Origin: Candidatus Poseidonia sp.
GTDB taxonomy: Archaea > Thermoplasmatota > Poseidoniia > Poseidoniales > Poseidoniaceae
Direction of reading: 5' to 3'
Assembly (NCBI GenBank): GCA_030829545.1
Contig: JAURAI010000001.1
Coordinates: 1-64,000 of the forward strand
Length of the DNA stretch: 64,000 nucleotides
Positions 12,956 through 42,248 of this stretch are shown here, one piece after another. How positions within the stretch are numbered: the stretch's first letter is position 1; each line of letters starts with the position of its first letter. A program made the translations under genes and the position numbers. The notes under the pieces were generated by a model. The model was not told where the DNA came from. It saw nothing but the letters and a program-made list of their open reading frames with translations, and ran no database searches.

Positions 12956-13609
12956 ATGAATTTCTTTCTCCTTTGTCTGCTTACGCTCTGGCTCTACCTG
13001 CCAGGTTTTCTCGCCAATACCTTTGCCATGATGTGGGGGAAATGGTTTCCCAAGACAGGGTACGGACCGTGGCCCATTGATGGGGGACGTGTCATGAAGG
13101 ATGGGAATCGAATGCTTGGTGACGGCAAAACATGGAACGGCCTCATCGGGGGTTCGCTCACCTCCGGGCTCTTGTGCGTCATCATGGCCACTACACTCGC
13201 AGATGGGTCCATTGAAACTGTTTTTTCAGCCCGTTCAACCGTGTTTGCCAACCCCCTCATCGGTTCGGAGCAAACTTGGTTTGATGTGGGAGGAACGGTA
13301 GGAACGGCATTTATTCTCGGCACCTTCCTCGGTTTTGCTTGTTTGGTTGGCGATAGTACGGGCTCCTTCCTCAAGCGACGTCGTGGACTCAAGCGAGAAG
13401 GCGATATCTCCTCAAAGGCACCGCTTCTCGACACGCTGCCCTTTGCAATCATGGTATTTTTGTGGGGACAACTCTTTCTGGGCACCTCGGTCTTGGCTGC
13501 AGAGGAACTCCGCTTGCCTATGATTGGCCTGATCCTCTTTACACCGATACTTCACCGCACCTTCAACATCATTGGCTACAAAATAGGCTGGAAAGACGTC
13601 CCGTATTGA
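12956..13609 (+). CDS. carS: CDP-archaeol synthase
   Basis: 217 residues, four to five transmembrane helices. The segments LPGFLANTFAMMWGKW, PIDGGR and GNRMLGDGKTWNGLIGG match the CarS/DUF46 family (N-terminal Asn-rich helix, then D-G and LGDGKTW-G-G). The enzyme transfers CMP from CTP to 2,3-digeranylgeranyl-glycerol phosphate, giving CDP-archaeol, the branch point of archaeal polar lipids. It therefore shows that the cell makes ether-linked isoprenoid membrane lipids, which makes the fatty-acid-type synthase at 16635 more remarkable. It follows tRNA-Gly by 116 bp. Confidence 0.9.
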   Translation: MNFFLLCLLTLWLYLPGFLANTFAMMWGKWFPKTGYGPWPIDGGRVMKDGNRMLGDGKTWNGLIGGSLTSGLLCVIMATTLADGSIETVFSARSTVFANPLIGSEQTWFDVGGTVGTAFILGTFLGFACLVGDSTGSFLKRRRGLKREGDISSKAPLLDTLPFAIMVFLWGQLFLGTSVLAAEELRLPMIGLILFTPILHRTFNIIGYKIGWKDVPY

Positions 13610-15866: not shown

Positions 15867-16622
15867 TCAGAGGGCGTTACGGTTTGTTTTGCAACCCACT
15901 CCCCAATCGGGATTGTCCTCCATCGCAACCTTAGTTTCTTCCAAAAGGGACTCTTCCGCATTCATAGGACGGTGTTCTTGGCCAGTCGTTGCTACGGCAA
16001 TTCTGTACCCATTATATTCGTAATAATCCAATTGAATTTTTGAATTTTCAATTGAAATAATTTGATTATCATTTTCAATTGAAAGTTGAATATCCCTGGG
16101 ATTGAGATGCATCCCCAAACCCATTGATTTTTGCACAGCTTCTTTCTTGACCCACATCCGCATTGCATGCTGAGGCAGAGACTTCAACTCGGCCAATTCG
16201 TCTCCTTTGGCCATGAGGTCAAAGGCATTCGTCGCAAGCCTTCGTTCAAGCAATTCACCATCAATCCCAATACTGACCCCTGCAGGTGCAAGAGCAACAA
16301 ATGCATGACCCCCTGAATGGCCGATCGACACAGAGGGCAGGGGTGTACGCTGCCAAACACCTTGGATGTATGCCAATCGTGGCGCTCGGAACTCATCTCG
16401 CTGTATTTCGAGATACGAAAGATCTCCACAACCCCATTGTTTGAGGGCTAAGCCCAGTAAATACCGGCCACTGAGATGTTCTCGCCTCCTTTTTTCTGTC
16501 ACAAAGGTAGCCACTTCATTCGGGTTTGCAAGTGGCACCATGTCCAATGAAAGGTCCAGCAAGGGCATCATGAAGGCCCGATGAGTAGCGCCAAGAGGGA
16601 TTTCGACAACACTCGAATCCAT
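15867..16622 (-). CDS. Sfp-type 4'-phosphopantetheinyl transferase
   Basis: 251 residues, the usual length for the Sfp/Gsp class. The diagnostic pieces are SIGHSGGHAFVALA, then SIGIDGE (Mg-binding Asp) and MWVKKEAVQKSMG (W-x-KEA-x-K motif). It should move phosphopantetheine from CoA to a carrier protein. It starts 12 bp after the megasynthase stop with a GGTGAGG site before the ATG, so it is the third gene of the fabI-megasynthase operon and most likely activates the three ACP domains encoded next door. The C-terminal coding part is strongly AT-rich (16010-16095) compared with its surroundings. Confidence 0.9.
   Translation of the reverse strand: MDSSVVEIPLGATHRAFMMPLLDLSLDMVPLANPNEVATFVTEKRRREHLSGRYLLGLALKQWGCGDLSYLEIQRDEFRAPRLAYIQGVWQRTPLPSVSIGHSGGHAFVALAPAGVSIGIDGELLERRLATNAFDLMAKGDELAELKSLPQHAMRMWVKKEAVQKSMGLGMHLNPRDIQLSIENDNQIISIENSKIQLDYYEYNGYRIAVATTGQEHRPMNAEESLLEETKVAMEDNPDWGVGCKTNRNAL
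16029..16083. repeat. AT-rich patch with three CAATTGAA copies inside the transferase gene
   Basis: CAATTGAA occurs at 16029-16036, 16049-16056 and 16076-16083, two of them within TTTCAATTGAA(A) palindromes. The 85 bp around them are far richer in A/T than the rest of the window. They encode a plausible part of the protein (IENDNQIISIENS), so this is coding sequence with an unusual composition rather than an insertion. Confidence 0.5.
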
Positions 16623-16634
16623 AACCTCACCGGA

Positions 16635-19600
16635 TCATCGGTCAAGCGAGAAGCGCTGACCCTCATCTACCTGCGCCATTGCCTTGAGCTCCAAGCCCTT
16701 CAAGGCGAGCACGGGGGCATCATCGTCACCGACCACGAGAACGTCGTGAACGGTCACACCGTCATCCTTTGCAGAGGTCTGAACGCTTCTCAAGCGCAGC
16801 GTTTCATGTTGCTCGGGTACGCGTAACATGGTCGACCACATAATGCCGACCGGCAGACTGCTAAATCCAAGCGTCTCCATGGCAACGAGGCCAGCATTCT
16901 GGAAGCCCGATTCAATCAACATTGGGAGTGATTCAAGCAGAACCTTTTCGCCTTCAGACTCACTTGCAAACTGGTCGATCTGTGGGAGTTGATGTCGCAT
17001 CAATGCCACACCGTCAATGCCCATGAGTTCCTCATCTCCAACTCCACGGATGACACCGCCGTGTGATTGGAAGCGTGGACCGTGGAAGTATCGGCTGTAA
17101 ATGAAGTCTGGATTGTGAATGAGGGCTCCCGGTGCAGGAGTGCCGATAGTGGGCAGTTCGTCTACTTCACGCTGAAGGAAAGGACACAGGTCGTCACATT
17201 TCTCAACCAAACGTACCAGTGCAACATGGTGCTCACGCTCACCAAAGACTTCACCTTTTGAATTGCTCAAGTCCGATACCAAATGGCATCGAACCCAGGT
17301 CATATCTCCTTCTTGACGTTCAACCTCAGCCTTGATACGGACCGTCATCGGCCCTTTCAATAATTTGACAGGCAAGCCAAAGCGTACCTCTTCAAATCCA
17401 GCCAGACACGTAGAAGGTCGCAACAGCAATGCATTTTGCGCAAACATCTCGAGAGCCATCACGCCTGGATGGTAGGGGACATCATCGATGGCGTGGTCAA
17501 TCAAGAAGGGGTGGTCTTGCGTTGAGAGCGTTGTCTGCGTGGTGATGCTTTGCCCTTCTTCAACCGTTAATACCCGGTCAATGAAGGGGAAACGTGCAGG
17601 GTCTGCAATCGTAGCAGCCATTCCCGGTGGGAGTTTGAGAGGTGCATCCCTGAATGAATTGAAGCGGTCCATGAGTCCCAAGGAACCGCAACCGATGACG
17701 CGACGTTTTCCTCCTCGAAGTGCCTCATCAACGAAAATATTGACTCCGTCTTCAACGGCGAGAGTATCGATTCCAGCAGCAGCGAAGACGGCTTCAATCG
17801 ACCCACGTGTGGCCATCCCGACGTCTCTCCAGCCTGTCCATCCAATGGCAACGCCTCTTCCTTGACCCGCAGCCGTGATGCGAGCCATTTCAGCGTCGAG
17901 GACTGAGTTCGCTGCAGCATAATCTGTTTGCCCGCCGTTACCAAAACGACCAGCGACACTTGTGAAGCAACAGGCGAAGTGAGGAGCGTCCAAACCTGAC
18001 GCCTTCACCGCTCCAAGCAAGGCTCTCCAACCGTCGACCTTGACACGAACGACCCGATCAAAGGTTGAGTAAGCCTTGTCTTCAACAAGTTTCGAATCTT
18101 CCAAACCTGCACCGTGGACAACACCGGTAATCGTTCGTCCAAGTTCACTGCCCAAAGTAGCTAAACCTTCGCTGTCCATCACGTCAATGGAATGGTAGGT
18201 GGCTTTGTTGCCTGTTTGTTCAATGGCATGAAGGGTGAGGTAAACATCTCTGCTTCGGGTGAATGATTGCCAAGAAGCATTCCATTCAACCATGGTGACC
18301 TTCCCCGTTTCACTGGCTGCCAACATTCGCTCCCGCAGGGCATTCTTTTCCTCTTCCAGTTGGGCAGCATCCCATTCGATCCAGTCTTTCGTGGACTCGA
18401 TCAGTCGTGACCTACCGAGTAACTCGAAATGAGCACCCGCATTACGGCTTGCTGTGGCGACACCGATGATGGAGGCCGCCGTAACTCCCGAGCCACCGCC
18501 TGAAACGAGCCAAGTATCGGCGGATGTGAGCGGTGTGAGTTCATCTACAACATCTTCAGCAAAGGCAACTAACGTCCAACGTCGTCCGTCTCGGTCGAGG
18601 CCAATTTCAACCTCGCCATCAAGTTCGAACAGGTCGCTTTCGATACGGGCGGCTGCAAGATCTTCATTGAACACGAGGTCGGGGTGAAGGTCAAGCGCTC
18701 TGCATCGGACATCGGGACGCTCAAAAGCATAGGATTTCGTTACGCCTGACGCTGCGCACTGAACGGAATTGAAGCGGTCGCCGAGGTTCCCATGTCGCCC
18801 ATCCATGGCGGTAACAGAAGCAACGAATGCATGTTTTCCTTCGGCCAATTGGCTGTTCAACTCTTTGAGAAGACCGAACCAGCCATGACCTGATAGCGCT
18901 ATTTGGGAAGAAGGATAGGTGTCCTCATCCCACTGCTCAGAGGCTAATTTCATGGAGGCCATGTGAACCAAACCAGCGAGGGGCGTATCTGCAAGTTGTT
19001 GAGCGATCCACGCAATGTGTTCTGGCTGCTCAGGGTCGGCACGGTAGACCGTTCGGCCCCCTTCATCGAGGACGGATGGGTCACGTATTCGACTTTCAAA
19101 GCCAACACGAATGGCCTTCAAACCGCGTTCTTCCATTCGACGGCAGAAGGCTTCTGCAATGCCCCACCCGTCATCGGTGACGAGCACCGTTCCACTGACA
19201 TCCAACAGCGAAGGTGTTCCGGGACAATCCTCAACTTCAATTTGCCAGCGACGGGTGCCTTCAACCGTGGATTGACTTGCTATTGGTTGAGGGCTTGCTG
19301 GGCTTGTTGGTGCGTCCACCTCTGCGGGAACGGAGACCGATGCACCACCTTGCATCTTGGTGATGTAGGCAGTGAAGTGGTTCAAGGTGGGGTGGTCCGA
19401 GAGAACAAAATCCTCGTCCACCGGTAGGGCAAAGCGATCTCGAATCTCAGCCATAATCTCAGCCTGTTTGACCGTGTCAATCCCCAATTCCCCTTCGAGG
19501 TCCTGGTCAAGTTCAATGAAATCAGCTGGATATCCAGTATGACTGACGACAACCTCAATCAACACTGCTTCGATATCTGGATTTGATGCCGCAGGAATCA

Positions 19601-22600
19601 CTTCTGCCTTGACAGGTTCAACGATTGGCGTTAGTTCTGATTTCACCACGGGCGGTGTTGGGCTCGGTGTTGAAACCGTTGATGGCGAGGAAGCCCCGCT
19701 CATGCGTTGGATATATCCAATCATGTGGTTCAACGTCGGGTAATCCGACAGGACAAAGTCCTCATCGATGGGCAAATTGAACCGATCTCGGATATCGGCC
19801 ATGATCTCAGCCTGTTTGACGGTGTCAATTCCCAATTCACCTTCAAGGTCCTGGTCAAGTTCAATGAAATCAGCAGGATAGCCCGTATGATCGACCACGA
19901 CTTCAACGACCGTTGCCGTCATGTCTGCGTCATCAACGACCGCTGGGGTTTCTACCGCCACTGGCACCGCCAAAGGCGTGGGCGGAGGTGTTGGGGTCAC
20001 TGGTGCAGGGACTGACGGGGCAGTCACAGGTGCACCGCCTTGCATCTGCTGGATGTAGCCAATCATGTGATTCAGGGTCGGGTAATCGGACAAAACAAAG
20101 TCTTCATCGATGGGCAAATTGAATCGATCTCGGATATCGGCCATGATTTCAGCCTGCTTGACCGTATCAATACCCAATTCACCTTCGAGGTCTTGGTCAA
20201 GTTCCACAAAGTCTGCAGGATAGCCAGTATGGTTGACCACGACCTCAATGACGGTGCTCACCATGCCTTCATCACTTACAGGGGCTGCTGTTATCGCAGG
20301 TGCTGGCGCGGGCATTGGTTCAGGAGATGGTTCAGGTACCGGAGCCGTGGCCTTCGGCGTTGGTGCAGGAAGCGAAGGTTCGCTTGGTGATGGCAGACCT
20401 TCCCATGCTTCGGTAGGGGGCCATGGCTCGCCTTGGATGCCTCCATGGAGGTTGTTTTCACCATCTACATAGGCGACCAATTTATTCTGCAATACGCGCA
20501 TGACAACCTTGTCAGTTCCAGCAAGGCCCCGAGTCCAGGCGAGGAGTTTGGCACCGTTGATACGGTCGCCCTCAATGGGCCATCGACGCATCAATGAAAG
20601 GGCGATTTGTGACCCGAATCCAGCAGCAAAGCGCAAACCGTATTGGAGTTCAGGATAATCGCCACCCTTGGAGAGATTCAAATCACCCAACTCAGGGTCC
20701 TTCTCCTTGTGATTCGCAATGGGTGGGATACGCCCGGTGAGCAAGCCATAGAACATGCTTGCGTCCTCGATACCGACCGCCATTGGATGGCCGGTGAACC
20801 CTTTGGTATTGGCGATGACGAGTTTATTGGTGGAGTCCCCAAATGTATCCCTCAGGGCTCTGACTTCGGACTGCGCCGAGCCTCCGCGAGCAGGGGTGTA
20901 AGTTTCATGAGAGAAGAAGACCGTCTTCGGAGCGATCTCATGGCGGTTGAGTCCCCATCGTTGTTCCATTTCACTGACGAAGCCGTTGACGACTTGCCCG
21001 ACGTGGTCAACATCGAGGCGGGTACCGTGATAGGCTGAATTGGCAGTTGTTGAACCAAGGAATTCAGCAATGGGTTGAACGCCTCGTTGCTCTGCTTCAG
21101 AATGCCGTTCAACCACGAAAGCTGCTGCACCCATGCCCAAGACCAATCCATTACGCCTGCGGTCAAAGGGCAAGGCTGTTTCCTCCACAACATTCCCCGT
21201 GGCTGCTGCACCTGAAGCTGCAAAGCCACCTGCAATCCATTCCCACAAGTCATCGCCAGTGACATCTTCTCCGCTGATGATGACCACACGGTCCACCCGT
21301 CCAGCATCCAACCAATCCTCGGCCACCCCGAAGGCTGCTGTTGCAGATGCACAAGCGAGGTTGATGGTGGTATTTGGCCCTCGAATACCCGTATATTGTG
21401 CGAATTGGGAATGTCCCATGTTGAGGGTTTGGAAGAGATACCTTCGGTCAAAACGACCTTCGCCGTCATCGCCGTCTGTCTTGGCGTGCTTGACTCCCAT
21501 CTGCAAACCAGGGAAGCAAGAGGAAAAGACAATTCCAGTACGGTCTCGTTGTAGTTGAGGCACCTGCCAATTACGTATCAGTCGAAGCCCGCCCTTTCCT
21601 ACTTGCTCAACGGGAGTGAGTGGTATCCCCGCATCTCGAAGGGCCAACAATCCAGCGGCAACAGCAAGCTGCGTGCTGATATCCCAGGCTACAACTGCCT
21701 TGGGATCAATACCAAATTCTTCTGCAAGGTCAAAGGCTCCTTTCAGACCGGCCAGTTGGGGAATGTCTCCAAAGACCTTGGCTTGGTCCATGTTCACCGA
21801 GCCATCTCGTCCTTTGATCAAACGTACAATATTTTTGTCGAGCAGTCGTTGCTTGTATTCGTCTGAAACTTCGCTGATGCAGGTATCACCGCGCACCAGT
21901 TGTTCAAAGGTATCCTCTGAAAAAACCCGCTCCATACCGGGCAATCCCAAGGAAATACCACTGACGACGTAGGGGTCAACGTCTCGTTGTGAAACAGTTG
22001 GCGCCTGAAGAGCGGTAGCCGTTGTCACACGCTGCATCTGCGCAGCGACGGGTGCAGCAGTCAAGGTTGCCATCGGCGACCACGAAGAGGGCGGTGCTCG
22101 AACCCAACGGTTGAGGTCACCCGCAGTTTGGATGGTTGAAGTATCAAATTCAGAGTCGGTGTCGGCCTCGGAAGCAAGCGTAGAAATGACATCTTGTACC
22201 TCGTGTGGAGTAAGGCCAAGCCCTTGCTGGAGAAGTACGTGGCCGTGACAGAAAGATGCGGGATAGCCACTGAATTTCGCAATACGGTCGCCAACATAGG
22301 CCTGAATCGCCTTTGTCTTTGCATACTCAGAATCAAGTGGACCAGTTTGGACCACCGAAACAGTTGGGGCGATTGCAACGCTACCGCCAGAATTCGGCAA
22401 GGGGCGTGCACGAGTACGAAGGGATTCGAGTTCTGAACTGGATGACGCTGTTTGAAGCGGGGCTGCAAAGTAGGCTTCAAGTGGACCAGCACGGAATCCT
22501 TCCTGTATGGCATCAGAATCCAAAGCAGGCCATTCGGGGGCTCGTCCAGCCAATGCTAAAGCGCCAATGGCGGTGAAAAAGGTAGCAATGCCCCCTTGTT

Positions 22601-25439
22601 TCGGATGATTGGACATAATGGGTAGGTGGGGTTGGCCCTCAAGAATTTGAGATGCGAACATCGACAGGGCTCGTTTTGGCCCGACTTCAACGAAAATACG
22701 AGCCCCTGCCTCATACATGGTCTCGATTTGTTTGGTCCATTCAACTGCTGATGCCATTTGCGGAGCGAGTTTTTCCAGAATACCGATCTTAGCATCCGCC
22801 CCCTCTGTAGGATAGAAGCTCCCGTCCACGTTCGCGGTAATGGGAATGGTGGGCCACCGAATACTCAGGCTTTCCAAAAAGCGACGCAATGGCTCATTTG
22901 CTGGTGCAACGATACGGGAATGGAATGCGTGTGATGTAGCGAGTGGGACACAATTGAATCCCTTAGCCTCAAAGGAAGCCATCACGGCTCGGACGGGGGC
23001 TGTTTCACCAGCAATCACCGTCATTTTGGGAGAGTTTTTATTGGCTGCGATGACGTATCCCTCGGCTTCATTGAGGACAGTTTCCACCTCGCCATAGGGT
23101 GCGGTTACGCTGGCCATGAGGCCTTTATCATCGATCTCAACCGAGCCCATTTCGGTACCCCGTGCGGCAGCAGCACGCAATGCACCGTCCATGTCAAGAA
23201 TACCAGAGGCCATCAGAGCAGCATATTCGCCGAGGGAGTGTCCTGCGACCATGTCAGGATGATGCCCATAGGTGTTGAGAGTTCGTTCAATCGCTAAATC
23301 CGCAGTGAGCATGGCGGGCTGAGTGTACTCTGTTTGCTTCAACTTGTGCTCGGCTTCCTTTCGTTCATCCGCATTCAGGCTGCTTCTCAAAACGAAGCTG
23401 GAGAGAGTTTCGCCGTCCAAAACCTCAACCATGGTCTCGTCGGCTTGCTTCCAAACTTTTCCGGGCGCGGAAAATCGCTGAACAAGGTCGTGCGTCATTC
23501 CAACGTATTGACTCCCTTGACCGGGATACATGTGGGCGACTTTTGCCTTGGCTGGTACGGGTGAATCCGTGCTAACAAGAACACCTTGGGCTTGGAGGAA
23601 ACCCCATTTTTCTTTGTCATCAAGTGCGTTGATTGCTAAGTTCTGTCGCTTGGCGAATTCTGCCCATGAGGTTGCTACTAAGGCCAAGCGAGCCACGGCG
23701 GTTTCATCGTAGTCGGAACTTGAAGTTTGGAGCGCTTCTGAAAGACGGCGCCCCCGTGGGTCGTCATCGAAGAGAGGACCGCTAAAAGAGAGGGATGCAA
23801 GTTGTTCTTTGAGAGAAGCAACCGAATCACCAGAAAGAAGGAGAACGCCTCCTTCAATCGCTTTCATGGCATCGTATGAGAGAGAGGGAGTTGCAGCCTC
23901 ATCCAAGATAGAGGCCGCCTGAGGCTGCTCTTGGCGGCTGTAAGCCTTCCAGCGTGCATCCCAATCAGAGGCCATGGGGAGATGGTAATCGGGGTCATAT
24001 CCTTCCAAAGCAACGTGGAAATTTGTGCCCCCAAATCCGAAGGCAGAGACGCCTGCACGACGAGGGTGATGTTCAGGACGAGGCCACTCCAGAGGCTGTG
24101 TGGGGACAAAGAAAGGGATGTTGGACCAGTCAACCGTTGGGTTCGGAGTTTCGAAGTTTGCACTTGGAGGAATGGTACGGTGATGAAGGGCCATGACCGT
24201 CTTCATGATGCCCGCAATACCAGCAGCAGCCTTGAGATGACCAATCTGAGATTTGATTGAACCTACGGCAACTTTCCCAGTTCCCTCAACACCGGTCCAC
24301 AGACGTGAGAGCGTTGAAAGTTCAGTCGCATCGCCTACTTTGGTTGAGGTCCCGTGGGCTTCAACCAATTCAACACTTGATGCGGGATAGCCTGCTTGGC
24401 TGTACGCACGTGCTATCGCTTGAATTTGGCCTCGTTGACTGGGCGCCGTAATGCCTTTTCCACGGCCGTCTGACGAACCACCAATACCTCGGATAACGGA
24501 ATAGATTTCATCCTCATCGCGAATCGCATCGCTCAATCGCTTGAGGACAAGAACGCCAGCACCTTCCCCCATGACGAATCCGTTCGCACGTGCGTCAAAA
24601 GGAGAAGAATGAGTAGGCGAAAGAGCGCCGATTGCAGAAAATTTGGAGAAGGTTGCAGGATCCATGGTTCGGTCGGTAGCCCCTGCGAGCATGATGTCGA
24701 CTTGACGCATCTGAAGCAGTCGGCAAGCGTCCAAAACCGCAGCCATTGAGGAGGCACATGCCGCATCCATTGCGTGATTAGGCCCTTGCAGATCAAGCAG
24801 GTTCGCCACGCGTCCAGAAACAACGTTGGCTAATTCACCGGGCATGGTATCTTCATTGATGCGAGGTGTTCCTTCGATAATTTGCTCGGTAAAGGCATCG
24901 GCATTGGTCGTGGGCAGACCGTGCTGCTGAGCTACTGTTGCTGTGTGGTTTGACCACACTCGAATGTTCGATAGGTTTCTGTTTTCACCGCCCAAAGCAT
25001 TGGCAAAGACAACACCCGTGCGAGTCCGGTCGATGTCGCTTTCTTCACCATCGTAGCCAGCATGCTCGATTGCATCTGCAGCCACGGTAACGGCCCAGAG
25101 TTGGCACGGGTCGATTTGACCCAAGGTTCCGGGCGGTTGACGCCAGCGGCGCCAATCAAATTCGGCTTCTTGAACCAAGGCGCCGATTTTAGAATAGGTG
25201 AACCCTTCAGTATGCTTGCCTGGTTCGCCTTCTTTCCAAAAGTGATTGATAGGGCCTGGCCAACGGCCTTCGGGAAGTGGCGCTATGCTCACCTTTGATT
25301 CGATGATGTTCTGCCAGAATGCATCAATTGAATCAGCATCTGGCATCAACGCACCAAGACCGACAACGGCGATTGGCTCGAACGGACCTTGATCAATACC
25401 CTCGCAGGGTTTGCCGTCTTCTGTGGTCAATGACATCAT
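16635..25439 (-). CDS. PfaA-like iterative fatty-acid/polyketide megasynthase: KS-AT-(ACP-like)-KS-ACP-ACP-ACP-KR-DH
   Basis: 2934 residues. Domains in order: KS1 (about 20-470) with active Cys228 (DAACASSM), His near 361 (VEAHGTST) and near 401 (KSQIGHLKAAAG). Acyltransferase (about 635-960) with YPGQGSQ and Ser735 (GHSLGEY). A degenerate ACP-like stretch (about 1040-1110). KS2 (about 1190-1640) with Cys1363 (NLACASATAA), His in FFSHETYTP and GFTGHPM. Three ACPs with LGIDTVKQAE, Thr1759, Thr1873 and Thr1989 at the usual Ser position, separated by Pro/Ala linkers. Ketoreductase (about 2090-2600) with SGGGSG, Ser2494 and Tyr2507 (DYAAAN). A double-hotdog dehydratase (about 2635-2925) with His2643/His2649 and a late ESGFQ. 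No ER or thioesterase domain; FabI upstream can supply the ER. The product is probably a fatty acid or reduced polyketide. A GGTGA site precedes the ATG 6 bp after fabI. Confidence 0.92.
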   Translation of the reverse strand: MMSLTTEDGKPCEGIDQGPFEPIAVVGLGALMPDADSIDAFWQNIIESKVSIAPLPEGRWPGPINHFWKEGEPGKHTEGFTYSKIGALVQEAEFDWRRWRQPPGTLGQIDPCQLWAVTVAADAIEHAGYDGEESDIDRTRTGVVFANALGGENRNLSNIRVWSNHTATVAQQHGLPTTNADAFTEQIIEGTPRINEDTMPGELANVVSGRVANLLDLQGPNHAMDAACASSMAAVLDACRLLQMRQVDIMLAGATDRTMDPATFSKFSAIGALSPTHSSPFDARANGFVMGEGAGVLVLKRLSDAIRDEDEIYSVIRGIGGSSDGRGKGITAPSQRGQIQAIARAYSQAGYPASSVELVEAHGTSTKVGDATELSTLSRLWTGVEGTGKVAVGSIKSQIGHLKAAAGIAGIMKTVMALHHRTIPPSANFETPNPTVDWSNIPFFVPTQPLEWPRPEHHPRRAGVSAFGFGGTNFHVALEGYDPDYHLPMASDWDARWKAYSRQEQPQAASILDEAATPSLSYDAMKAIEGGVLLLSGDSVASLKEQLASLSFSGPLFDDDPRGRRLSEALQTSSSDYDETAVARLALVATSWAEFAKRQNLAINALDDKEKWGFLQAQGVLVSTDSPVPAKAKVAHMYPGQGSQYVGMTHDLVQRFSAPGKVWKQADETMVEVLDGETLSSFVLRSSLNADERKEAEHKLKQTEYTQPAMLTADLAIERTLNTYGHHPDMVAGHSLGEYAALMASGILDMDGALRAAAARGTEMGSVEIDDKGLMASVTAPYGEVETVLNEAEGYVIAANKNSPKMTVIAGETAPVRAVMASFEAKGFNCVPLATSHAFHSRIVAPANEPLRRFLESLSIRWPTIPITANVDGSFYPTEGADAKIGILEKLAPQMASAVEWTKQIETMYEAGARIFVEVGPKRALSMFASQILEGQPHLPIMSNHPKQGGIATFFTAIGALALAGRAPEWPALDSDAIQEGFRAGPLEAYFAAPLQTASSSSELESLRTRARPLPNSGGSVAIAPTVSVVQTGPLDSEYAKTKAIQAYVGDRIAKFSGYPASFCHGHVLLQQGLGLTPHEVQDVISTLASEADTDSEFDTSTIQTAGDLNRWVRAPPSSWSPMATLTAAPVAAQMQRVTTATALQAPTVSQRDVDPYVVSGISLGLPGMERVFSEDTFEQLVRGDTCISEVSDEYKQRLLDKNIVRLIKGRDGSVNMDQAKVFGDIPQLAGLKGAFDLAEEFGIDPKAVVAWDISTQLAVAAGLLALRDAGIPLTPVEQVGKGGLRLIRNWQVPQLQRDRTGIVFSSCFPGLQMGVKHAKTDGDDGEGRFDRRYLFQTLNMGHSQFAQYTGIRGPNTTINLACASATAAFGVAEDWLDAGRVDRVVIISGEDVTGDDLWEWIAGGFAASGAAATGNVVEETALPFDRRRNGLVLGMGAAAFVVERHSEAEQRGVQPIAEFLGSTTANSAYHGTRLDVDHVGQVVNGFVSEMEQRWGLNRHEIAPKTVFFSHETYTPARGGSAQSEVRALRDTFGDSTNKLVIANTKGFTGHPMAVGIEDASMFYGLLTGRIPPIANHKEKDPELGDLNLSKGGDYPELQYGLRFAAGFGSQIALSLMRRWPIEGDRINGAKLLAWTRGLAGTDKVVMRVLQNKLVAYVDGENNLHGGIQGEPWPPTEAWEGLPSPSEPSLPAPTPKATAPVPEPSPEPMPAPAPAITAAPVSDEGMVSTVIEVVVNHTGYPADFVELDQDLEGELGIDTVKQAEIMADIRDRFNLPIDEDFVLSDYPTLNHMIGYIQQMQGGAPVTAPSVPAPVTPTPPPTPLAVPVAVETPAVVDDADMTATVVEVVVDHTGYPADFIELDQDLEGELGIDTVKQAEIMADIRDRFNLPIDEDFVLSDYPTLNHMIGYIQRMSGASSPSTVSTPSPTPPVVKSELTPIVEPVKAEVIPAASNPDIEAVLIEVVVSHTGYPADFIELDQDLEGELGIDTVKQAEIMAEIRDRFALPVDEDFVLSDHPTLNHFTAYITKMQGGASVSVPAEVDAPTSPASPQPIASQSTVEGTRRWQIEVEDCPGTPSLLDVSGTVLVTDDGWGIAEAFCRRMEERGLKAIRVGFESRIRDPSVLDEGGRTVYRADPEQPEHIAWIAQQLADTPLAGLVHMASMKLASEQWDEDTYPSSQIALSGHGWFGLLKELNSQLAEGKHAFVASVTAMDGRHGNLGDRFNSVQCAASGVTKSYAFERPDVRCRALDLHPDLVFNEDLAAARIESDLFELDGEVEIGLDRDGRRWTLVAFAEDVVDELTPLTSADTWLVSGGGSGVTAASIIGVATASRNAGAHFELLGRSRLIESTKDWIEWDAAQLEEEKNALRERMLAASETGKVTMVEWNASWQSFTRSRDVYLTLHAIEQTGNKATYHSIDVMDSEGLATLGSELGRTITGVVHGAGLEDSKLVEDKAYSTFDRVVRVKVDGWRALLGAVKASGLDAPHFACCFTSVAGRFGNGGQTDYAAANSVLDAEMARITAAGQGRGVAIGWTGWRDVGMATRGSIEAVFAAAGIDTLAVEDGVNIFVDEALRGGKRRVIGCGSLGLMDRFNSFRDAPLKLPPGMAATIADPARFPFIDRVLTVEEGQSITTQTTLSTQDHPFLIDHAIDDVPYHPGVMALEMFAQNALLLRPSTCLAGFEEVRFGLPVKLLKGPMTVRIKAEVERQEGDMTWVRCHLVSDLSNSKGEVFGEREHHVALVRLVEKCDDLCPFLQREVDELPTIGTPAPGALIHNPDFIYSRYFHGPRFQSHGGVIRGVGDEELMGIDGVALMRHQLPQIDQFASESEGEKVLLESLPMLIESGFQNAGLVAMETLGFSSLPVGIMWSTMLRVPEQHETLRLRSVQTSAKDDGVTVHDVLVVGDDDAPVLALKGLELKAMAQVDEGQRFSLDR
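19359..20262 (-). repeat. Three tandem ACP-coding repeats
   Basis: ACP3 (about 19359-19575), ACP2 (about 19713-19925) and ACP1 (about 20055-20262) share most of their DNA sequence, including HTGYPADF, LDQDLEGELGIDTVKQ and SDYPTLNH-type stretches. Attachment residues lie 114 and 116 codons apart. ACP1 and ACP2 are nearer to each other; ACP3 differs (MAEIRDRFALPVDEDF). Linkers between them are Pro/Ala/Val-rich and diverged. This points to duplication with selection on the carrier domains. Confidence 0.85.
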
Positions 25440-25445
25440 TTCACC

Positions 25446-26237
25446 TCAATTCATGATGCTCTCGGGCACCATCGTAATCGAATACCCAGCGTCGACGTAA
25501 ATGCACTGCCCCGTTACGCCCGAGGACAGCGGGCTCGAGAGCCAGAGCGTAGCTCCTGCCACATCTTCTTGGCTGACATTTCGTCGCAAAGGAGCATTGG
25601 CTTCAACATGGTCGAGAATACGGTCGAAGCCTGGAATGCCCCCCGCAGCGATGGTACGAATGGGTCCCGAGGAAATGGCATTGATACGATGTCCTTCTGG
25701 GCCGAGGTGGCATGCCAATTCTCGCGTCCAGCATTCAAGGGCAGCCTTTGCCATGGACATGATGCCGTAATTAGGGACGTATCGGTTAGATGCAGCATAG
25801 GTAAGCGTGACCGTTGAAGAGCCCGGGTTGAGATAGGGCAAAGCGTGTTTAAGACAACGCTGAAGGGAATTCGCCGAGATGGTCATGGCGGTGTTGATGT
25901 CTTGGTCTTCGACGAAGAGAATGGGGCGGTCAAAGCAAGCACGAGGTGCAAAACCAATGGCGTGTATGAGGATATCCGCCTTTTTACCGGGGTGGTCTTT
26001 TGCGAATGCCGTGAAGAATTCAGCCGTTGATTCATCCCCAGCGACGTCAAGTGGATAGAATCCGTCGATGGCGGGCAACTCGTCTTTGAGCTTGAAAACT
26101 CTGCTCATGAATCGCTTCTGGTATCCCAAATAGAGGGTCACTCCAGCCGCTGCTAATTGTTTGCAAATGGCCCAAGCGATGGAGTCCTCACTGGCCACCC
26201 CGAAAACAAAGGCTGTTTTTCCTTCTAATCCAATCAT
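25446..26237 (-). CDS. fabI: Enoyl-[acyl-carrier-protein] reductase, FabI type
   Basis: 263 residues from ATG 26237 (a GTG three codons earlier is less likely; GGAG lies 9 nt before the ATG). A short-chain-dehydrogenase fold with the FabI-specific features: GVASEDSIAWAI for NADH binding, the loop HAIGFAPR, and the active pair in a YVPNYGIMSMAKAALE segment (Tyr-x6-Lys), then SSGPIRTIAAGGI. FabI reduces the trans-2-enoyl-ACP in the last step of each fatty-acid elongation cycle. It is the first gene of the operon with the megasynthase, which itself lacks an enoyl-reductase domain. A de novo fatty-acid FabI is unusual in an archaeon; transfer from bacteria is the simplest explanation. Confidence 0.93.
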   Translation of the reverse strand: MIGLEGKTAFVFGVASEDSIAWAICKQLAAAGVTLYLGYQKRFMSRVFKLKDELPAIDGFYPLDVAGDESTAEFFTAFAKDHPGKKADILIHAIGFAPRACFDRPILFVEDQDINTAMTISANSLQRCLKHALPYLNPGSSTVTLTYAASNRYVPNYGIMSMAKAALECWTRELACHLGPEGHRINAISSGPIRTIAAGGIPGFDRILDHVEANAPLRRNVSQEDVAGATLWLSSPLSSGVTGQCIYVDAGYSITMVPESIMN

Positions 26238-26259
26238 GAAAAACACTCCGTAGATAACA

Positions 26260-27444: not shown

Positions 27445-27523
27445 AGCGGCCACAGTAGAAGGGTGTGGATTCTCTTTCATCAATGTGATGGGAGATTGGG
27501 TGACTTAAAGGGTGAATCTAAAT

Positions 27524-28405
27524 TCATGAAGAAGCAGGAGATTCCCCATAAACTTTCAGCGCTAACTCGTGGTGTGTCGTCCAAAGAACGTCCTCCTCAA
27601 CACCGGCTTCAAGAAGTTGTTTCGTTCGCTTTGGCACCGTCTTTGGACCCAAAACGGCACCTGGTCTCCGGGGGTCGTCCATGTAATCTGTTTCCAAAAA
27701 AAAGCCATGACTTGAGGCACTCTGAGTTTCAATCAAACGATCAAGTGCCCCTTTACCAATTAACACGCTCGGGGTTAACCCGTGTGTATGGCTCGCACGA
27801 ACATCGGGAGGCGAGTAGTGACGAACCAATTTGACCAAATCCATCCCTTGTTTGGTCGCTCTTGCAGCAAGGTCTGGATAGGTGGCATCGCTTTCGCCTT
27901 CGACGTGCAATTGCAACGGAATACCCTCCTGTGCAGCAAGATGCATGGTTTCATCGAGCAGCATGTTGGACAAATCCCAAATGTGTTCTGAAACCTTCCA
28001 GTGAGGACGCCCCACCTCTCCGATAGCATGGGCTTGACCCTCGTGAACAAAATGAAGAGCAGCATCGATGGAATGTCGATAATTCTCGATGGCCCGTTCC
28101 TGACCTGCATCGCCTTCTTCTTCCACCCAGCGCTCGAACTGATGGGCAAATGCTGCAGGATGTGGTCCCAAGACGACTCTCACTCCCAAACCCACTTCGT
28201 GGCGAACTGCTTCAGCCATGCCAAGCGTATCAGCATAGGATTCAGTATGGCCTTGAAGCGTCTCCGGAGGTTGTCGGAAATCGGGACAGTGAACCAGCAC
28301 GATGTCGGTGCCACCTGCACGCTGGAAATCTTTAGCGGCATCCAAATAGCGTCCATTTCGATTGAGATGGAAGTGATTATCCAGAATCGGACCGTAGTAG
28401 GTCAT
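27524..28405 (-). CDS. TatD-like metal-dependent hydrolase
   Basis: 293 residues, amidohydrolase-type TIM barrel. Metal ligands are suggested by DNHFHLN near the N-terminus, GEVGRPHW (conserved Glu), LQLHVEG (His), ASHTHG (His) and ETDYMDDP (Asp), in the right order for the TatD family. Such enzymes act as DNases or other hydrolases; the specific substrate is unknown. The gene is 9 bp downstream of the TBP-like gene's stop on the same strand, so the set 29765-27524 is probably one transcription unit. Confidence 0.8.
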   Translation of the reverse strand: MTYYGPILDNHFHLNRNGRYLDAAKDFQRAGGTDIVLVHCPDFRQPPETLQGHTESYADTLGMAEAVRHEVGLGVRVVLGPHPAAFAHQFERWVEEEGDAGQERAIENYRHSIDAALHFVHEGQAHAIGEVGRPHWKVSEHIWDLSNMLLDETMHLAAQEGIPLQLHVEGESDATYPDLAARATKQGMDLVKLVRHYSPPDVRASHTHGLTPSVLIGKGALDRLIETQSASSHGFFLETDYMDDPRRPGAVLGPKTVPKRTKQLLEAGVEEDVLWTTHHELALKVYGESPASS

Positions 28406-28414
28406 GCCATCGCC

Positions 28415-28957
28415 TCAAATTCGCTCGACAAAATATCCGCCGTCGGTGAGGACTGACTTCCAATATACCGCTGCCATCGCGACCATGTTGGGGTGACGAG
28501 CATCTGCGACAATCCCTTTCCCGTTGGGCCAAAGTTGAACGGTCAAATTATGCCTTGAATCGTGAATCGTGGTGCAACCGAGACGTTGGTCGTATTCTGC
28601 TTTACCAGAGGTTAATTGTGCTGGTATCGCCTGAAGGTTGATGTTCTGTTCAAATTGGAACGAGGCTACAACCGGCCCCATTTCAGCAACCAGACCACTG
28701 TCGTCCATGCCCAAACGAAGCAGCAATTCCTTCGCAGCTGCACGGGCCGCTTCGATGCGGTGCGTCCCATGAACAACAATACGGCCTTCTTCATCGATGA
28801 CCAAGGTGGCACGGGGGCGGTCAAGCGCCTTGATGACGACACCGCTGTTCCGCTGCCCACCAACTTCTGTCACGACTTGATCGTGATTGACGGGCGTTGG
28901 GCAGACGAAGCGTACGAGTTGGTTTTCAACGCGAACATCCATTGAACCGGCTGTCAT
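28415..28957 (-). CDS. TBP-like protein, divergent TATA-binding-protein fold
   Basis: About 180 residues from ATG 28957, chosen because it follows the upstream stop with a GGAGGA site; an in-frame start 7 codons earlier overlaps that gene. Two imperfect halves are visible. The first holds GVVIKALDRPRATLVID, EEGRIVVHGTH and EAARAAAKELLLRLG, which follow the TBP repeat pattern (P-G-V-I..L..P..T..IF.SGK.V.TGA...E.A..A...L). The second (about 95-180) repeats the layout more weakly (QFEQNINLQAIPAQL, KAEYDQRLGC). It may be a second TBP, a TBP-related regulator or a DNA-binding domain borrowed for another use. The match is by pattern only. Confidence 0.6.
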   Translation of the reverse strand: MTAGSMDVRVENQLVRFVCPTPVNHDQVVTEVGGQRNSGVVIKALDRPRATLVIDEEGRIVVHGTHRIEAARAAAKELLLRLGMDDSGLVAEMGPVVASFQFEQNINLQAIPAQLTSGKAEYDQRLGCTTIHDSRHNLTVQLWPNGKGIVADARHPNMVAMAAVYWKSVLTDGGYFVERI

Positions 28958-28958
28958 C

Positions 28959-29765
28959 TCATTCCTCCTCCATGCCAACGGGGTCTGTTGGTGTTGATGA
29001 AATCTCCTCAGGAGCAGGGTGGCTGCTCAGTGCTTCGAGGATACTGTGTCTTTGAGGCATGTGAAGTGCTACCAGAAGGGTTGCATCATCTCCAAGATCT
29101 TCACGTAAGGAGGCTAAGGCCCCACGTATTCGGCATGCATAGCGTTGATCTCTTCGCTGATGAAGGACTGGAGTACTGAGCCATTCACACATATCCCACC
29201 AAGCGCCTGCCAGTACACTGGCACTTGACAAATCGGTCGACTGGCCCTTTGGGGGCGGCTGAGCAAGGAAGAGATGGGCCTTCACAAAGCGTTTCCATCG
29301 TTTGGTGACCCGAACCATGCCGAGCAACTTTCGCCAATGAGATACAGCTTTTGCCTCCTGTGTGAGATAATCGCTCCAATCTTCATCATCCGCAAGAGGT
29401 TCAATGAAGAAAACAGGGCGCTCGTGGCGTGTTGCATTTCGTTGCAGGCGACGTGGCTCGGGGTCTGGAAATCTGCCTCCTTGGATGTCATCAAGTTCGT
29501 TAATCCCTTCGAGGTACTTCCCAAAGGCACCACCTGAAAGAAGACCGTGAGTGAGGTTGATTCCTTGTGATTCAAGCTCGTCCTTCTCTTCTTGAATCCA
29601 CAAATCTACGATATCCGGTGCGTCAAGCAACGCCAAACCATGCCACTGATCTCTGGGGCGCATGGCGTTGGGAAAAACCACGGTAGGAAGTGTCCCGTGA
29701 AGAATCACCCGACCGCCTTCGGGGTCTTTCCAGACCATGTCGGCCCAGTCGTGCTGGGAATTCAT
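28959..29765 (-). CDS. Conserved-looking protein of unknown function, weak TraB-like resemblance
   Basis: 268 residues, soluble. An N-terminal GGRVILHGTLP segment and a later RRDQRYACRIRGAL followed by TLLVALHMPQRHSILEAL loosely recall TraB/GumN proteins (GT-H near the start, ERD-x-YMA, then a V-G-x-H-x-x-G-I strand), but key residues differ and I do not trust the assignment. It is translated just before the TBP-like gene (stop and start separated by 1 bp) and just after the giant surface protein gene's stop on the same strand, so it is co-transcribed with the TBP-like gene. Confidence 0.6.
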   Translation of the reverse strand: MNSQHDWADMVWKDPEGGRVILHGTLPTVVFPNAMRPRDQWHGLALLDAPDIVDLWIQEEKDELESQGINLTHGLLSGGAFGKYLEGINELDDIQGGRFPDPEPRRLQRNATRHERPVFFIEPLADDEDWSDYLTQEAKAVSHWRKLLGMVRVTKRWKRFVKAHLFLAQPPPKGQSTDLSSASVLAGAWWDMCEWLSTPVLHQRRDQRYACRIRGALASLREDLGDDATLLVALHMPQRHSILEALSSHPAPEEISSTPTDPVGMEEE

Positions 29766-35621: not shown

Positions 35622-35750
35622 GGTGTCACCTACGGAATACGGAGGGGAGCACCCCCTAAAATCTCGTCGCTCTGCGGTTTCGCACGAATTCAACTTCAAA
35701 TACCTTCATTTTGGACGATGGATTATGAGGGAGAAGGCCGTGGACGGTCC

Positions 35751-39788: not shown

Positions 39789-41129
39789 TCATCCAAGAAG
39801 CTCTTGGTGCATGTCGATATATTGAATGGTGATGTCCCCGTTATTGAAATCCTTCTCGTCCATAATCCGCCGGTGCAGTGGAATGAGGTGTTCAACGCCC
39901 GTGATGATCGTTTCATCAAGGGCCGTTTTCATTCGAGCGATGGCGTCCTCACGGTCTCGGCCCCAAACGAGTAATTTAGCGAGCAGGGAATCAAAGCAAC
40001 CCGGCATCTCGTATCCCGGGTGAGCGTGTGTGTCACATCGTACGCCAAAGCCACTTGGGAAATGACACTCCCACAATCGGCCCGGACTTGGTACAAATTC
40101 ACGAGGATCTTCTGCGTTTAATCTGCACTGAATAGAGTGGCCGCGCCATGTGATGTCTTCTTGGGAAAGTGGCAATGCTTCACCTTGTGCTACCCGAATG
40201 CCGAGTTCAACCAAGTTATGACCGGTGATCAATTCGGTAACGGTGTGTTCCACTTGGACACGTGGATTGACTTCAAGGAAGTAAAAATCACCGTTGGCAT
40301 CACGAAGGAATTCGAAGGTTGCAAGACCTTTGTAGCCAACCGATTCCGCCCCACGGCATACCAGGTCGCCGATTTCTGCACGCTTGGCATCATCCAACCA
40401 AGGGCCTTCTTCAACCAATTTTTGATGGCGGCGTTGGATGGAGCAAAAGCGTTCACCAAAATGAATGGCCTTCTTACCGTCCGCAAGAACCTGAAACTCC
40501 ACGTGCTGAGCACCTTGAATGTATTTCTCAACAAAGACCCGCTCGTCACCGAAGGCTGACCTTGCTCGTGATTGACAGAGTTTGAGAGCGCTTTCAAATT
40601 CGTCGGCCTTCCCGACAATTTGCATACCGATGCCACCACCGCCAGCAGCTGCTTTGATGATGACAGGGTAGCCGATTTCATCGGCGAGTTTACTGGCGAC
40701 ATCAGCACTGGAAATAGGTTCTGAGGAGCCCTTTGCGGTCGGAAGTCCTGCCGCTTCCATCGCCGCTCGCGCCTCGATCTTATCACCGAGCAACGTGATG
40801 ACGCCCGATGCAGGACCGATGAAGGTGATGCCTTCCTCCTCAAGACGGGCTACAAATGCTGCGTTTTCGGCTAAGAAGCCATAACCAGGGTGTACGGCAT
40901 CACATTCCAACTCCTTTGCAGCCTCGACGACGGATTCAATGTCGAGATAGGAGTCCAAAGGGTTGGTTCGGTAATTCGGATAAGCAATATCTGCCATGCG
41001 AACTGGGAGCGAGAGTCGGTCCTCTCGACCGTGAATGATGGCCGCTTCAATACCCATGTCACGCAAGGTTCGCAGGATGCGGAGCGCAATTTCGCCACGG
41101 TTTGCAATGAGAACACGCTTGAAGCCCAT
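39789..41129 (-). CDS. Biotin carboxylase subunit (acetyl/propionyl-CoA or pyruvate carboxylase)
   Basis: 446 residues from ATG 41129 (MGFKRVLIANRGEIA), the usual N-terminus; an upstream ATG would add 11 unrelated residues. ATP-grasp fold with AAAGGGGIGMQ (glycine-rich ATP loop), RDCSIQRRHQK-type FCSIQRRHQKLVEE, and FLEVNPRVQVEHTVTE, the biotin-carboxylase signature. It carboxylates biotin on a carrier protein, using ATP and bicarbonate. No biotin carrier or carboxyltransferase is in this window, so the partners must lie elsewhere. If they form acetyl-CoA carboxylase, the product malonyl-CoA would feed the megasynthase at 16635; if propionyl-CoA carboxylase or pyruvate carboxylase, it would not. 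Confidence 0.9.
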   Translation of the reverse strand: MGFKRVLIANRGEIALRILRTLRDMGIEAAIIHGREDRLSLPVRMADIAYPNYRTNPLDSYLDIESVVEAAKELECDAVHPGYGFLAENAAFVARLEEEGITFIGPASGVITLLGDKIEARAAMEAAGLPTAKGSSEPISSADVASKLADEIGYPVIIKAAAGGGGIGMQIVGKADEFESALKLCQSRARSAFGDERVFVEKYIQGAQHVEFQVLADGKKAIHFGERFCSIQRRHQKLVEEGPWLDDAKRAEIGDLVCRGAESVGYKGLATFEFLRDANGDFYFLEVNPRVQVEHTVTELITGHNLVELGIRVAQGEALPLSQEDITWRGHSIQCRLNAEDPREFVPSPGRLWECHFPSGFGVRCDTHAHPGYEMPGCFDSLLAKLLVWGRDREDAIARMKTALDETIITGVEHLIPLHRRIMDEKDFNNGDITIQYIDMHQELLG

Positions 41130-41192
41130 AGAACACGGGCAACCGAAGCAATCTATGAGCAAAGCGGTGGAATTGTACGTGGAAGAACCGAT

Positions 41193-42248
41193 TCACGGTG
41201 GAATTTCAACCACGGATTCGTCGTTCCCTTGAACGTAGACGACGGCACGAACAAAAGGCTGACCGCGAGGGCGAAACATGGAACGCTTCATCATGCCCAA
41301 GATGCCTCGTAAGGTCACAAGCATCCTCTTGAATGAGCGCCATGGATGACGAATGATACGCAATGGGTTACCGATGCCAGTCAGAGGGTATTGCAATTGC
41401 TCCATCATGGTCATTGGAATCTGTTCATCAATTCCATACACGGTTGGTCGTTTGTCCTTGGGCATGTAATAGGTTCCAAAAATCAAATCCCAAAGAGGCA
41501 GGAAGGTCGAATAATTACACCAAATGGCTTCTTCCTCGTTGGAATGGTGCCAATGATGGAATTCGGGCGTCATGATGATCCTTGAGAGCGGTCGTAACCA
41601 GAGGCGGACATTCGCATGAAGGAATAGGCCGAGTAAAATTTGGGCAATGGCAATCAATCCTGATGTTTCCGCAGAGAAGCCCGCGGCAATGAGAAAGAAA
41701 AACGCTGGCGCAATCAACGTTCCATCAAAGGGGTGGGCACGAAAACCGCTGGCCCAATCCATGTCCTCTGGCGAATGATGAATGGCATGGAAACGCCATA
41801 GTTGAGGCACCTCATGGTAGAAACGGTGGGTCCAATATCCCATCAAGTCAAACAACATCACGCCCACGATGAGCAGATATGGTTCAGGTATCGATTGGAC
41901 ATAGGGACGGAGCAACAATCCAGGAATCCAAGCAAAACTCAGAACACCAACGAGAATGGCCGCTACCAAACCAATGCTTTGAAGCACGGGTGAAGCCAGT
42001 GCGTAGCCTACATCAAGTTCGAGATGTGGGCGGCGAAACCCTTGGTGGTCGTGGCGCGGAAAGAGTCGTTCAAAGGGGACAACAAGTACGAAGAGAACGA
42101 TAACTGCCCCCAATCCATCTTGGTTCTTTGATACGGCATAACCTGCGAGTGCCAATGCGAGGATTCGAAGTACAATCGCCCGAGGCCATCCACCAACGGG
42201 TGGAAGGCGAGGAGCAGCCGGAACATCTGCATCCGAGGGGTATGTCAC
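41193..42248 (-). CDS. Fatty-acid hydroxylase / sterol-desaturase superfamily membrane enzyme
   Basis: 351 residues with four to five hydrophobic helices and the three His clusters of the superfamily: HRFYHE, FHAIHHS and EFHHWHHS, which together hold the di-iron site. Members hydroxylate or desaturate lipid tails or sterol-like compounds using oxygen. Likely target: an acyl chain or isoprenoid lipid; not decided by the sequence. The long hydrophilic N-terminus (about 1-25) precedes the first helix. The enzyme sits among lipid-related genes and is divergent from a SLOG-family gene. Confidence 0.85.
   Translation of the reverse strand: MTYPSDADVPAAPRLPPVGGWPRAIVLRILALALAGYAVSKNQDGLGAVIVLFVLVVPFERLFPRHDHQGFRRPHLELDVGYALASPVLQSIGLVAAILVGVLSFAWIPGLLLRPYVQSIPEPYLLIVGVMLFDLMGYWTHRFYHEVPQLWRFHAIHHSPEDMDWASGFRAHPFDGTLIAPAFFFLIAAGFSAETSGLIAIAQILLGLFLHANVRLWLRPLSRIIMTPEFHHWHHSNEEEAIWCNYSTFLPLWDLIFGTYYMPKDKRPTVYGIDEQIPMTMMEQLQYPLTGIGNPLRIIRHPWRSFKRMLVTLRGILGMMKRSMFRPRGQPFVRAVVYVQGNDESVVEIPP

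Follow-up and report, generated by a model that had tools for sequence, protein, structure and literature searches.

A probable Type R-class fatty-acid synthase operon with threonine at its acyl carrier sites in Poseidoniales archaea

The 64,000-nucleotide stretch analysed here (the window; positions 1 to 64,000 of the forward strand of contig JAURAI010000001.1, assembly GCA_030829545.1) comes from the archaeon Candidatus Poseidonia sp. and carries three minus-strand genes in tandem, with intergenic gaps of 6 and 12 bp. These genes are native to the order Poseidoniales, and we consider that they probably form a type I fatty-acid synthase (FAS) of the Type R class that works iteratively, reduces its chains fully and probably hands them on to an acceptor. 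Its acyl carrier protein (ACP) domains bear Thr at the phosphopantetheine site, which is occupied by Ser in known carrier proteins. A preliminary description made from the sequence letters had recognised FabI, a 2934-residue megasynthase and an Sfp-type phosphopantetheinyl transferase (PPTase) as three adjacent genes, and as a bacterial-type synthase operon in an archaeal genome; the open reading frames (ORFs) lie where it placed them, and the operon turned out to be native to, and conserved in, Poseidoniales. The genes are as follows, an in-frame ATG at position 26237 lying three codons after the GTG start of the first.

25446..26246 (-): FabI-type enoyl-ACP reductase, 266 amino acids (aa) from GTG; Pfam adh_short_C2, 232 bits; PDB match FabI 1ulu
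16635..25439 (-): megasynthase, 2934 aa, KS1-AT-(ACP-like)-KS2-ACPx3-KR-DH, from Pfam, NCBIfam and residue conservation
15867..16622 (-): Sfp-type 4'-phosphopantetheinyl transferase, 251 aa; Pfam ACPS (PF01648), 33 bits against a cut-off of 25

The Pfam matches on the megasynthase comprise two ketoacyl-synthase stretches, Acyl_transf_1, three PP-binding domains, KR and PKS_DH_N, which together with the active-site residues give the following layout of ketosynthase (KS), acyltransferase (AT), ACP, ketoreductase (KR) and dehydratase (DH) domains.

23985..25379 (-): KS1 domain, from Pfam; C228, H362, K396, H401
22638..23531 (-): malonyl-type AT, from Pfam; S735 in GHSLG and H840 in HAFH, both invariant
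22110..22307 (-): degenerate ACP-like stretch (GYPASFCHGHVLLQQGLGLTPHEV) between AT and KS2, from a reading of the sequence letters
20454..21992 (-): KS2, FabF-like ketosynthase; C1363, H1511, K1546, H1551
20052..20255 (-): ACP1, PF00550; Thr1759 (codon 20163-20165)
19710..19913 (-): ACP2, PF00550; Thr1873 (codon 19821-19823)
19362..19565 (-): ACP3, PF00550; Thr1989 (codon 19473-19475)
17670..18527 (-): KR, from Pfam; S2494, Y2507, N2511
16638..17588 (-): DH, PKS_DH_N; H2649, E2843

All three window ACPs passed the PF00550 cut-off and share the motif LGIDTVKQ, and in alignments with ACPs of the PDB (the five best of ten matches, all Ser) the window Thr falls on the Ser of the known proteins. 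When the attachment site was left free in the search pattern, the family showed 286 T, 9 S and no other residue at 295 sites in 111 of 129 loci. For this count six duplicate loci were dropped, one of the T (L083) sits in a broken frame, and the loci had been found by the whole megasynthase or KS2, with only L037 coming from a query of KS2 plus one ACP. A looser pattern gave 281 T, 11 S and three other residues, which by our reading lie outside ACPs. The Ser-type sites belong to L024, L025, L026 and L028, plus one ACP each in L046 and L080, where Ser and Thr carriers are mixed. With the state scored as T, S or mixed, and the four rows that lack ACPs set aside, four changes fall on the tree, and two Thr/Ser switches lie within Poseidoniales. 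Codons for the attachment-site Thr vary synonymously (ACC, ACT, ACG and ACA). A single-sequence structure model of the ACP was uninformative (pLDDT 39).

We found that the PPTase follows these carriers closely. Among 35 genomes, a PF01648 match occurred once in each of 17 of the 19 genomes with the synthase and in none of the 16 without it. In 16 of the 17 cases the match shares its contig with adjoining synthase sequence; the remaining match, on contig 6 of G042, lies 380 bases from the contig start, and the synthase contig of that genome is cut at residue 1860. The two synthase-bearing genomes without a PF01648 match belong to genus g7, in which BLAST finds a PPTase beside the synthase. In the window's own genome (74% complete), the operon PPTase is the sole PF01648 match. 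Likewise, the 41 PF00550 matches, found in 18 of the 19 synthase-bearing genomes, all fall within synthase frames, and the 16 synthase-less genomes gave none. Since the PPTase is retained only alongside these ACPs, it most likely modifies them; since both ACP and PPTase matches are confined to the synthase or its neighbourhood and are absent without it, the Thr residues are very probably phosphopantetheinylated. Our literature search, covering parts of the sources, found neither a Thr-ACP nor an archaeal synthase like this one described.

The remaining domains look active from their residues. Fifteen active-site positions were identical across 29 Poseidoniales and 47 other relatives (76 proteins), apart from two X, two KR Asn-to-Ser changes and six relatives without an aligned DH. 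The KS1 residues are invariant in this set (one Poseidoniales Cys read as X), and the DH His and Glu are unchanged in the Poseidoniales (one X) and in the 41 of the 47 other relatives that aligned. The HAFH motif of the AT presumably denotes malonyl preference. The dN/dS ratios of the megasynthase were 0.051 against L002 and 0.043 against L004, seven more distant pairs having saturated dS and giving no ratio; the protein is under strong purifying selection. The AlphaFold2 model of KS2 (pLDDT 90.5) had FabF as its top Foldseek match, with a target TM of 0.89. In the available extract of PMC3098273, the position of KS2 in the Type R class is labelled CLF. An inactive CLF is not supported for the window KS2, as the full catalytic set C/H/K/H is kept and the model is FabF-like, and the label therefore appears doubtful here. 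The degenerate ACP-like stretch before KS2 has no Ser or Thr at the usual place. At the same position, the Anaerolineae relatives L105 and L115 have a Thr-ACP motif.

The operon is widespread in the order and occupies a recurrent site. A megasynthase match was present in 41 of 59 genomes (the window's own and its relatives), namely 33/35 in the window's own family, Poseidoniaceae, and 8/24 in the sister family; the two own-family genomes without a match are 70% and 67% complete. At a threshold of 1e-60, a phylum-wide draw of 292 genomes, including the one-contig genome G073, which has the synthase, yielded 72 matches, of which 41 came from the own family, 14 from the sister family and 17 from other families; the one own-family miss, G281, is 83% complete. 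In 35 loci (L020 and L030 being the same place), the synthase was accompanied by FabI in 30 and by the PPTase in 31, and wherever a partner was missing the synthase was split between contigs or ran to a contig end. All three genes are present in G073 (L052), L053 and L055. The gene order u268, TBP-like, TatD, FabI, synthase, PPTase is common to the own family and the sister genera g10, g12 and g14 (L021-L024), the site markers in the window, taken from the Pfam scan and gene-order comparison, being

27524..28405 (-): TatD, flanking the operon
28415..28978 (-): TBP-like gene, flanking the operon

TatD is present in all 16 synthase-less sister genomes. Eleven of these sites were fetched, and in ten TatD is followed by a gene of about 630 aa, sometimes with a small ORF or gap between, the eleventh (L149) reaching the contig end after TatD. 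The same gene lies beyond the PPTase in L022, directly adjoining it, and in L024, where a single ORF intervenes. Genus g12 (L021, L023) has a different downstream side, and in genus g7 the TatD site is empty and the synthase is located elsewhere (L154, L155). The g7 synthase (L025-L027, L154, L155) is divergent and Ser-type. These layouts are most simply explained by a single cassette that occupied a single ancestral site and was lost in some lineages. In the KS2 tree, L028 of the own family groups with L021 of the sister family (support 90), which hints at exchange within the order.

Relatives beyond Poseidoniales were collected by a KS2-alignment scan of genome contigs, which gave at least 589 stretches, at least 525 of them confirmed, and from which the best 80 loci were kept. 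An ORF survey found synthase domains in 76 of these; L082 and L101 showed partner genes only and L095 and L134 nothing, the choice of ORFs possibly having hidden a synthase. The groups represented include Chloroflexi, Elusimicrobia, Acidobacteria, Myxococcota, Spirochaetes, Actinomycetes, Heimdallarchaeota and Thermoplasmatota. Domains of the relatives repeatedly follow the order KS1-AT-KS2-ACPn-KR-DH, and genes for a PPTase and for acetyl-CoA carboxylase (ACC) often lie downstream; the ACC gene adjoins the synthase in bacterial and Heimdall relatives, and the PPTase is fused at the C-terminus in Heimdall and several Thermoplasmatota synthases. Of the loci retrieved as possible relatives from other Thermoplasmatota families, 11 had a KS2 match and one, L054, had none. 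The record L114, named 'Proteobacteria bacterium Centralia_MAG_189', has the same synthase as G098 (L043, of the window's phylum), and its NCBI label looks wrong.

In a KS2 tree of 60 rows (short search), the Poseidoniales formed one clade with support 100 and a long stem, outside 27 grouped bacterial rows; one bacterial row, L091, fell among Thermoplasmatota. The approximately unbiased (AU) test rejected neither a grouping of Poseidoniales with the 27 bacteria (p 0.738; this tree scored better than the quick tree) nor one with the other Thermoplasmatota (p 0.387). The transfer from bacteria proposed in the preliminary description was not demonstrated, given the separate clade and the two opposed placements, and on these trees a bacterial origin is neither shown nor excluded.

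PUFA (polyunsaturated fatty acid) synthases have Ser at the ACP site, where the window protein has Thr; the protein further differs from PfaA in its extra internal KS2, and the order KS-AT-tandem ACP-KR is the same. PfaA (TIGR02813) is the best NCBIfam model for the megasynthase, at 883.7 bits against a cut-off of 1010.1. Calling the synthase PfaA-type, as had been done, is loose: the subfamily cut-off is missed, and among described classes Type R comes nearest. PfaB, PfaC and PfaD were not found among the window ORFs scanned, a set that excluded 7096-12705, 29775-35699 and short ORFs. In the available extract of Shulse & Allen (2011; PMC3098273), a Type R cluster has a gene for one large KS-MAT-'CLF'-ACP(3-6)-KR protein and, next in order, one for a PPTase. 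The extract describes the class as a 'secondary lipid' synthase of unknown product in Acidobacteria, Elusimicrobia and Chloroflexi including Roseiflexus, with an ACC gene beside the cluster in Koribacter. The words 'archaea', 'threonine' and 'serine' each occur 0 times in the main text of that paper. The window protein has this domain order in one chain, with three ACPs, and the PPTase gene directly downstream. It resembles Type R in architecture, PPTase gene and, over many loci, host groups; it differs in the retained Cys/His/Lys/His set of KS2, in having a DH and in its reductase gene, FabI. The KS2 tree holds relatives from Roseiflexus sp., Korobacteraceae and Elusimicrobia, Type R type-strain sequences being outside it and the paper having used the proximal KS. 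By these likenesses, we place the megasynthase in the Type R (PfaA-like) class as the closest one described.

The best PDB match of the window FabI was 1ulu (2.9e-58), with the catalytic Tyr-x6-Lys aligned; among the best 25 of 151 matches, those to NCBIfam FabI equivalogs all stay short of the cut-off. It shares family and Tyr-x6-Lys with FabI enoyl-ACP reductases and differs in serving a type I synthase. FabI occupies the place where many bacteria have an acyl-CoA-dehydrogenase-like gene, which was seen in 28 of the 80 best relatives' loci, a count affected by the many loci that end early, mostly upstream. A FabI frame also stands beside the synthase of L043, the Heimdall synthase L061 has an N-terminal NMO-type domain fused to it, and several relatives' loci show no enoyl reductase. 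The kind of enoyl reductase thus seems free to change, with some such enzyme still being required.

We propose that the PPTase would attach phosphopantetheine arms to Thr1759, Thr1873 and Thr1989, which the AT would load from malonyl-CoA; KS1 would condense, KR and DH would process, and FabI, acting in trans, would reduce the enoyl group. By its residues KS2 is also a competent ketosynthase, which may carry out part of the elongation or set chain length. The chain may not be hydrolysed, because no thioesterase domain was matched, and would probably be handed to an acceptor by PlsC-family acyltransferases, the simplest acceptor being glycerol-3-phosphate, giving ester or mixed ether/ester lipids. 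The 'complete' acyl synthesis claimed earlier holds for the elongation activities, among which the enoyl reductase is encoded separately, and not for priming and release. We judge the product likely to be fatty-acyl.

Fatty acids are not expected in the membranes of these marine archaea. The preliminary description noted in the window

12956..13609 (+): CarS (CDP-archaeol synthase), an ether-lipid gene, PF01864

and concluded that the cell should have isoprenoid membranes. CarS is there, but this conclusion is uncertain, since glycerol-1-phosphate dehydrogenase (G1PDH, PF13685) was over cut-off in 0/35 genomes, with one weak match, against 13/14 in the control. GpsA was present in 33/35 genomes, a carboxyltransferase in 35/35 and PlsC-like enzymes in 59/59. 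As G1PDH went undetected and both GpsA and PlsC-like enzymes occur, a lipid of the glycerol-3-phosphate ester type or of a mixed type appears plausible. Orthologues (E <1e-90) of a 538-aa PlsC-like acyltransferase (P0004), which had no match in a PDB search, occurred in 32/35 own-family genomes and in the sister family in 5/8 genomes with the synthase and 0/16 without (Fisher p 0.0013 by genome; 0.048 by genus, 3/4 against 0/5, the fairer unit). These lipid-gene findings agree with the picture of Marine Group II (MGII) in the available extracts of PMC6962369 and PMC7852524. According to the former, MGII does not appear to produce the membrane lipids known from archaea, and the question is raised of what lipids it does produce. 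Both cite putative MGII fatty-acid or ester-lipid genes of Villanueva et al. (2017), a set that may or may not include this synthase.

Several points weigh against the proposed role. To our knowledge, no product or protein of this operon has been described. The Pfam scan of the operon proteins matched neither a thioesterase nor any other release domain, and PlsY was found in 0/35 genomes. The 538-aa acyltransferase is absent from 3/8 synthase-bearing sister genomes, its by-genus link being weak. The 16 sister genomes without the synthase are also without G1PDH over cut-off; therefore the synthase would not be the order's sole membrane-lipid source, and membrane use of its product can only be inferred. 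The PPTase Pfam scores are weak, and the statement that no other PPTase occurs rests on Pfam sensitivity. The engineered E. coli ACP S36T is used as an unmodifiable mutant, so that Thr modification would need a tolerant PPTase. S36T is among the plasmids listed in the available extract of PMC10607373, and the only hint of expression comes from an extract of PMC9902471, which reports polyketide-synthase transcripts from metagenome-assembled genomes of Thermoplasmatota; these may be from another gene. The S36T mutant and the replacement of Ser in 3/3 window ACPs would suit carriers that are dead or differently used, with Thr unmodified and the chain staying on KS or CoA; we regard this as unlikely, given that only Thr or Ser occupies the 295 sites, that the two residues switch within Poseidoniales and mix in L046 and L080, that the rest of the motif is intact, and that the PPTase match is restricted to synthase-bearing genomes. 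An assembly chimera or a recent single-lineage acquisition from a bacterium, to which the homologues in many bacterial groups and the two tolerated tree placements might point, is extremely improbable. The long-stemmed Poseidoniales clade is separate, and no composition break was seen. A chimeric contig, the concern raised in the preliminary description and checked here by gene order in other Poseidoniales, is ruled out by the same operon and flanks in many genomes, in two archaeal families and in one-contig G073.

A stronger competitor, to which we give a considerable chance somewhat below even, is a secondary-lipid or polyketide synthase making a special acyl chain (unsaturated, hydroxylated, storage, surface lipid or signal) and not bulk membrane fatty acid. 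Characterised Pfa and Hgl relatives make such products, the nearest described class is a 'secondary lipid' one, distribution in the sister family is patchy (8/24), no release domain was matched and a PF04116 gene lies in the window at 41193-42248. However, near-universal presence in the own family (33/35) and strong purifying selection fit a core function, the dedicated FabI argues for full reduction, and the lack of ACP matches outside the synthase in the genomes tested means that no separate FAS II for bulk chains was seen. For the fatty-acid synthase reading, use of the product in membrane lipid has a nearly even chance. The joint proposal that Thr is the natural attachment residue of a whole inter-domain type I FAS family with tolerant PPTases, and that the Poseidoniaceae synthase makes membrane-lipid acyl chains (glycerol-3-phosphate ester or mixed), is tentative and somewhat doubtful.

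Elsewhere in the window, two adjoining genes may serve lipid modification and malonyl-CoA supply.

39789..41162 (-): biotin carboxylase, which may supply malonyl-CoA; the gene does not adjoin the operon
41193..42248 (-): PF04116 fatty-acid-hydroxylase/sterol-desaturase-type enzyme, directly beside the biotin carboxylase gene

Beta-oxidation enzymes (enoyl-CoA hydratase and 3-hydroxyacyl-CoA dehydrogenase genes; 53901-54791, 61359-62243, 63085-63864) share the window with the synthase, and with a Cdc6/Orc1 gene at 45273-46514 (+) a replication origin may be near. In the majority of own-family loci viewed, the gene of a 375-aa protein (26356-27483, -) separates FabI from TatD. In the gene-order comparison it is present in seven of them (L030, L032, L034, L036, L052, L053 and L055) and was not found in the own-family L029 or in sister-family loci. 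Pfam gives no match, and the protein reads as membrane-anchored and exported, with a signal peptide, an ectodomain, one transmembrane segment and a very acidic tail.

Now that almost every genome of one MGII family proves to carry a dedicated, probable fatty-acid synthase, with G1PDH undetected, the question of MGII lipids posed in the available extract of PMC6962369 becomes directly testable. The large family of carriers with Thr for Ser offers a simple biochemical test of the textbook rule of phosphopantetheinylation, and the Thr-ACP with its PPTase is a possible orthogonal ACP/PPTase pair. If true, a Thr-carrier FAS supplying the membrane lipids of Poseidoniaceae would answer which lipids these abundant marine archaea make.

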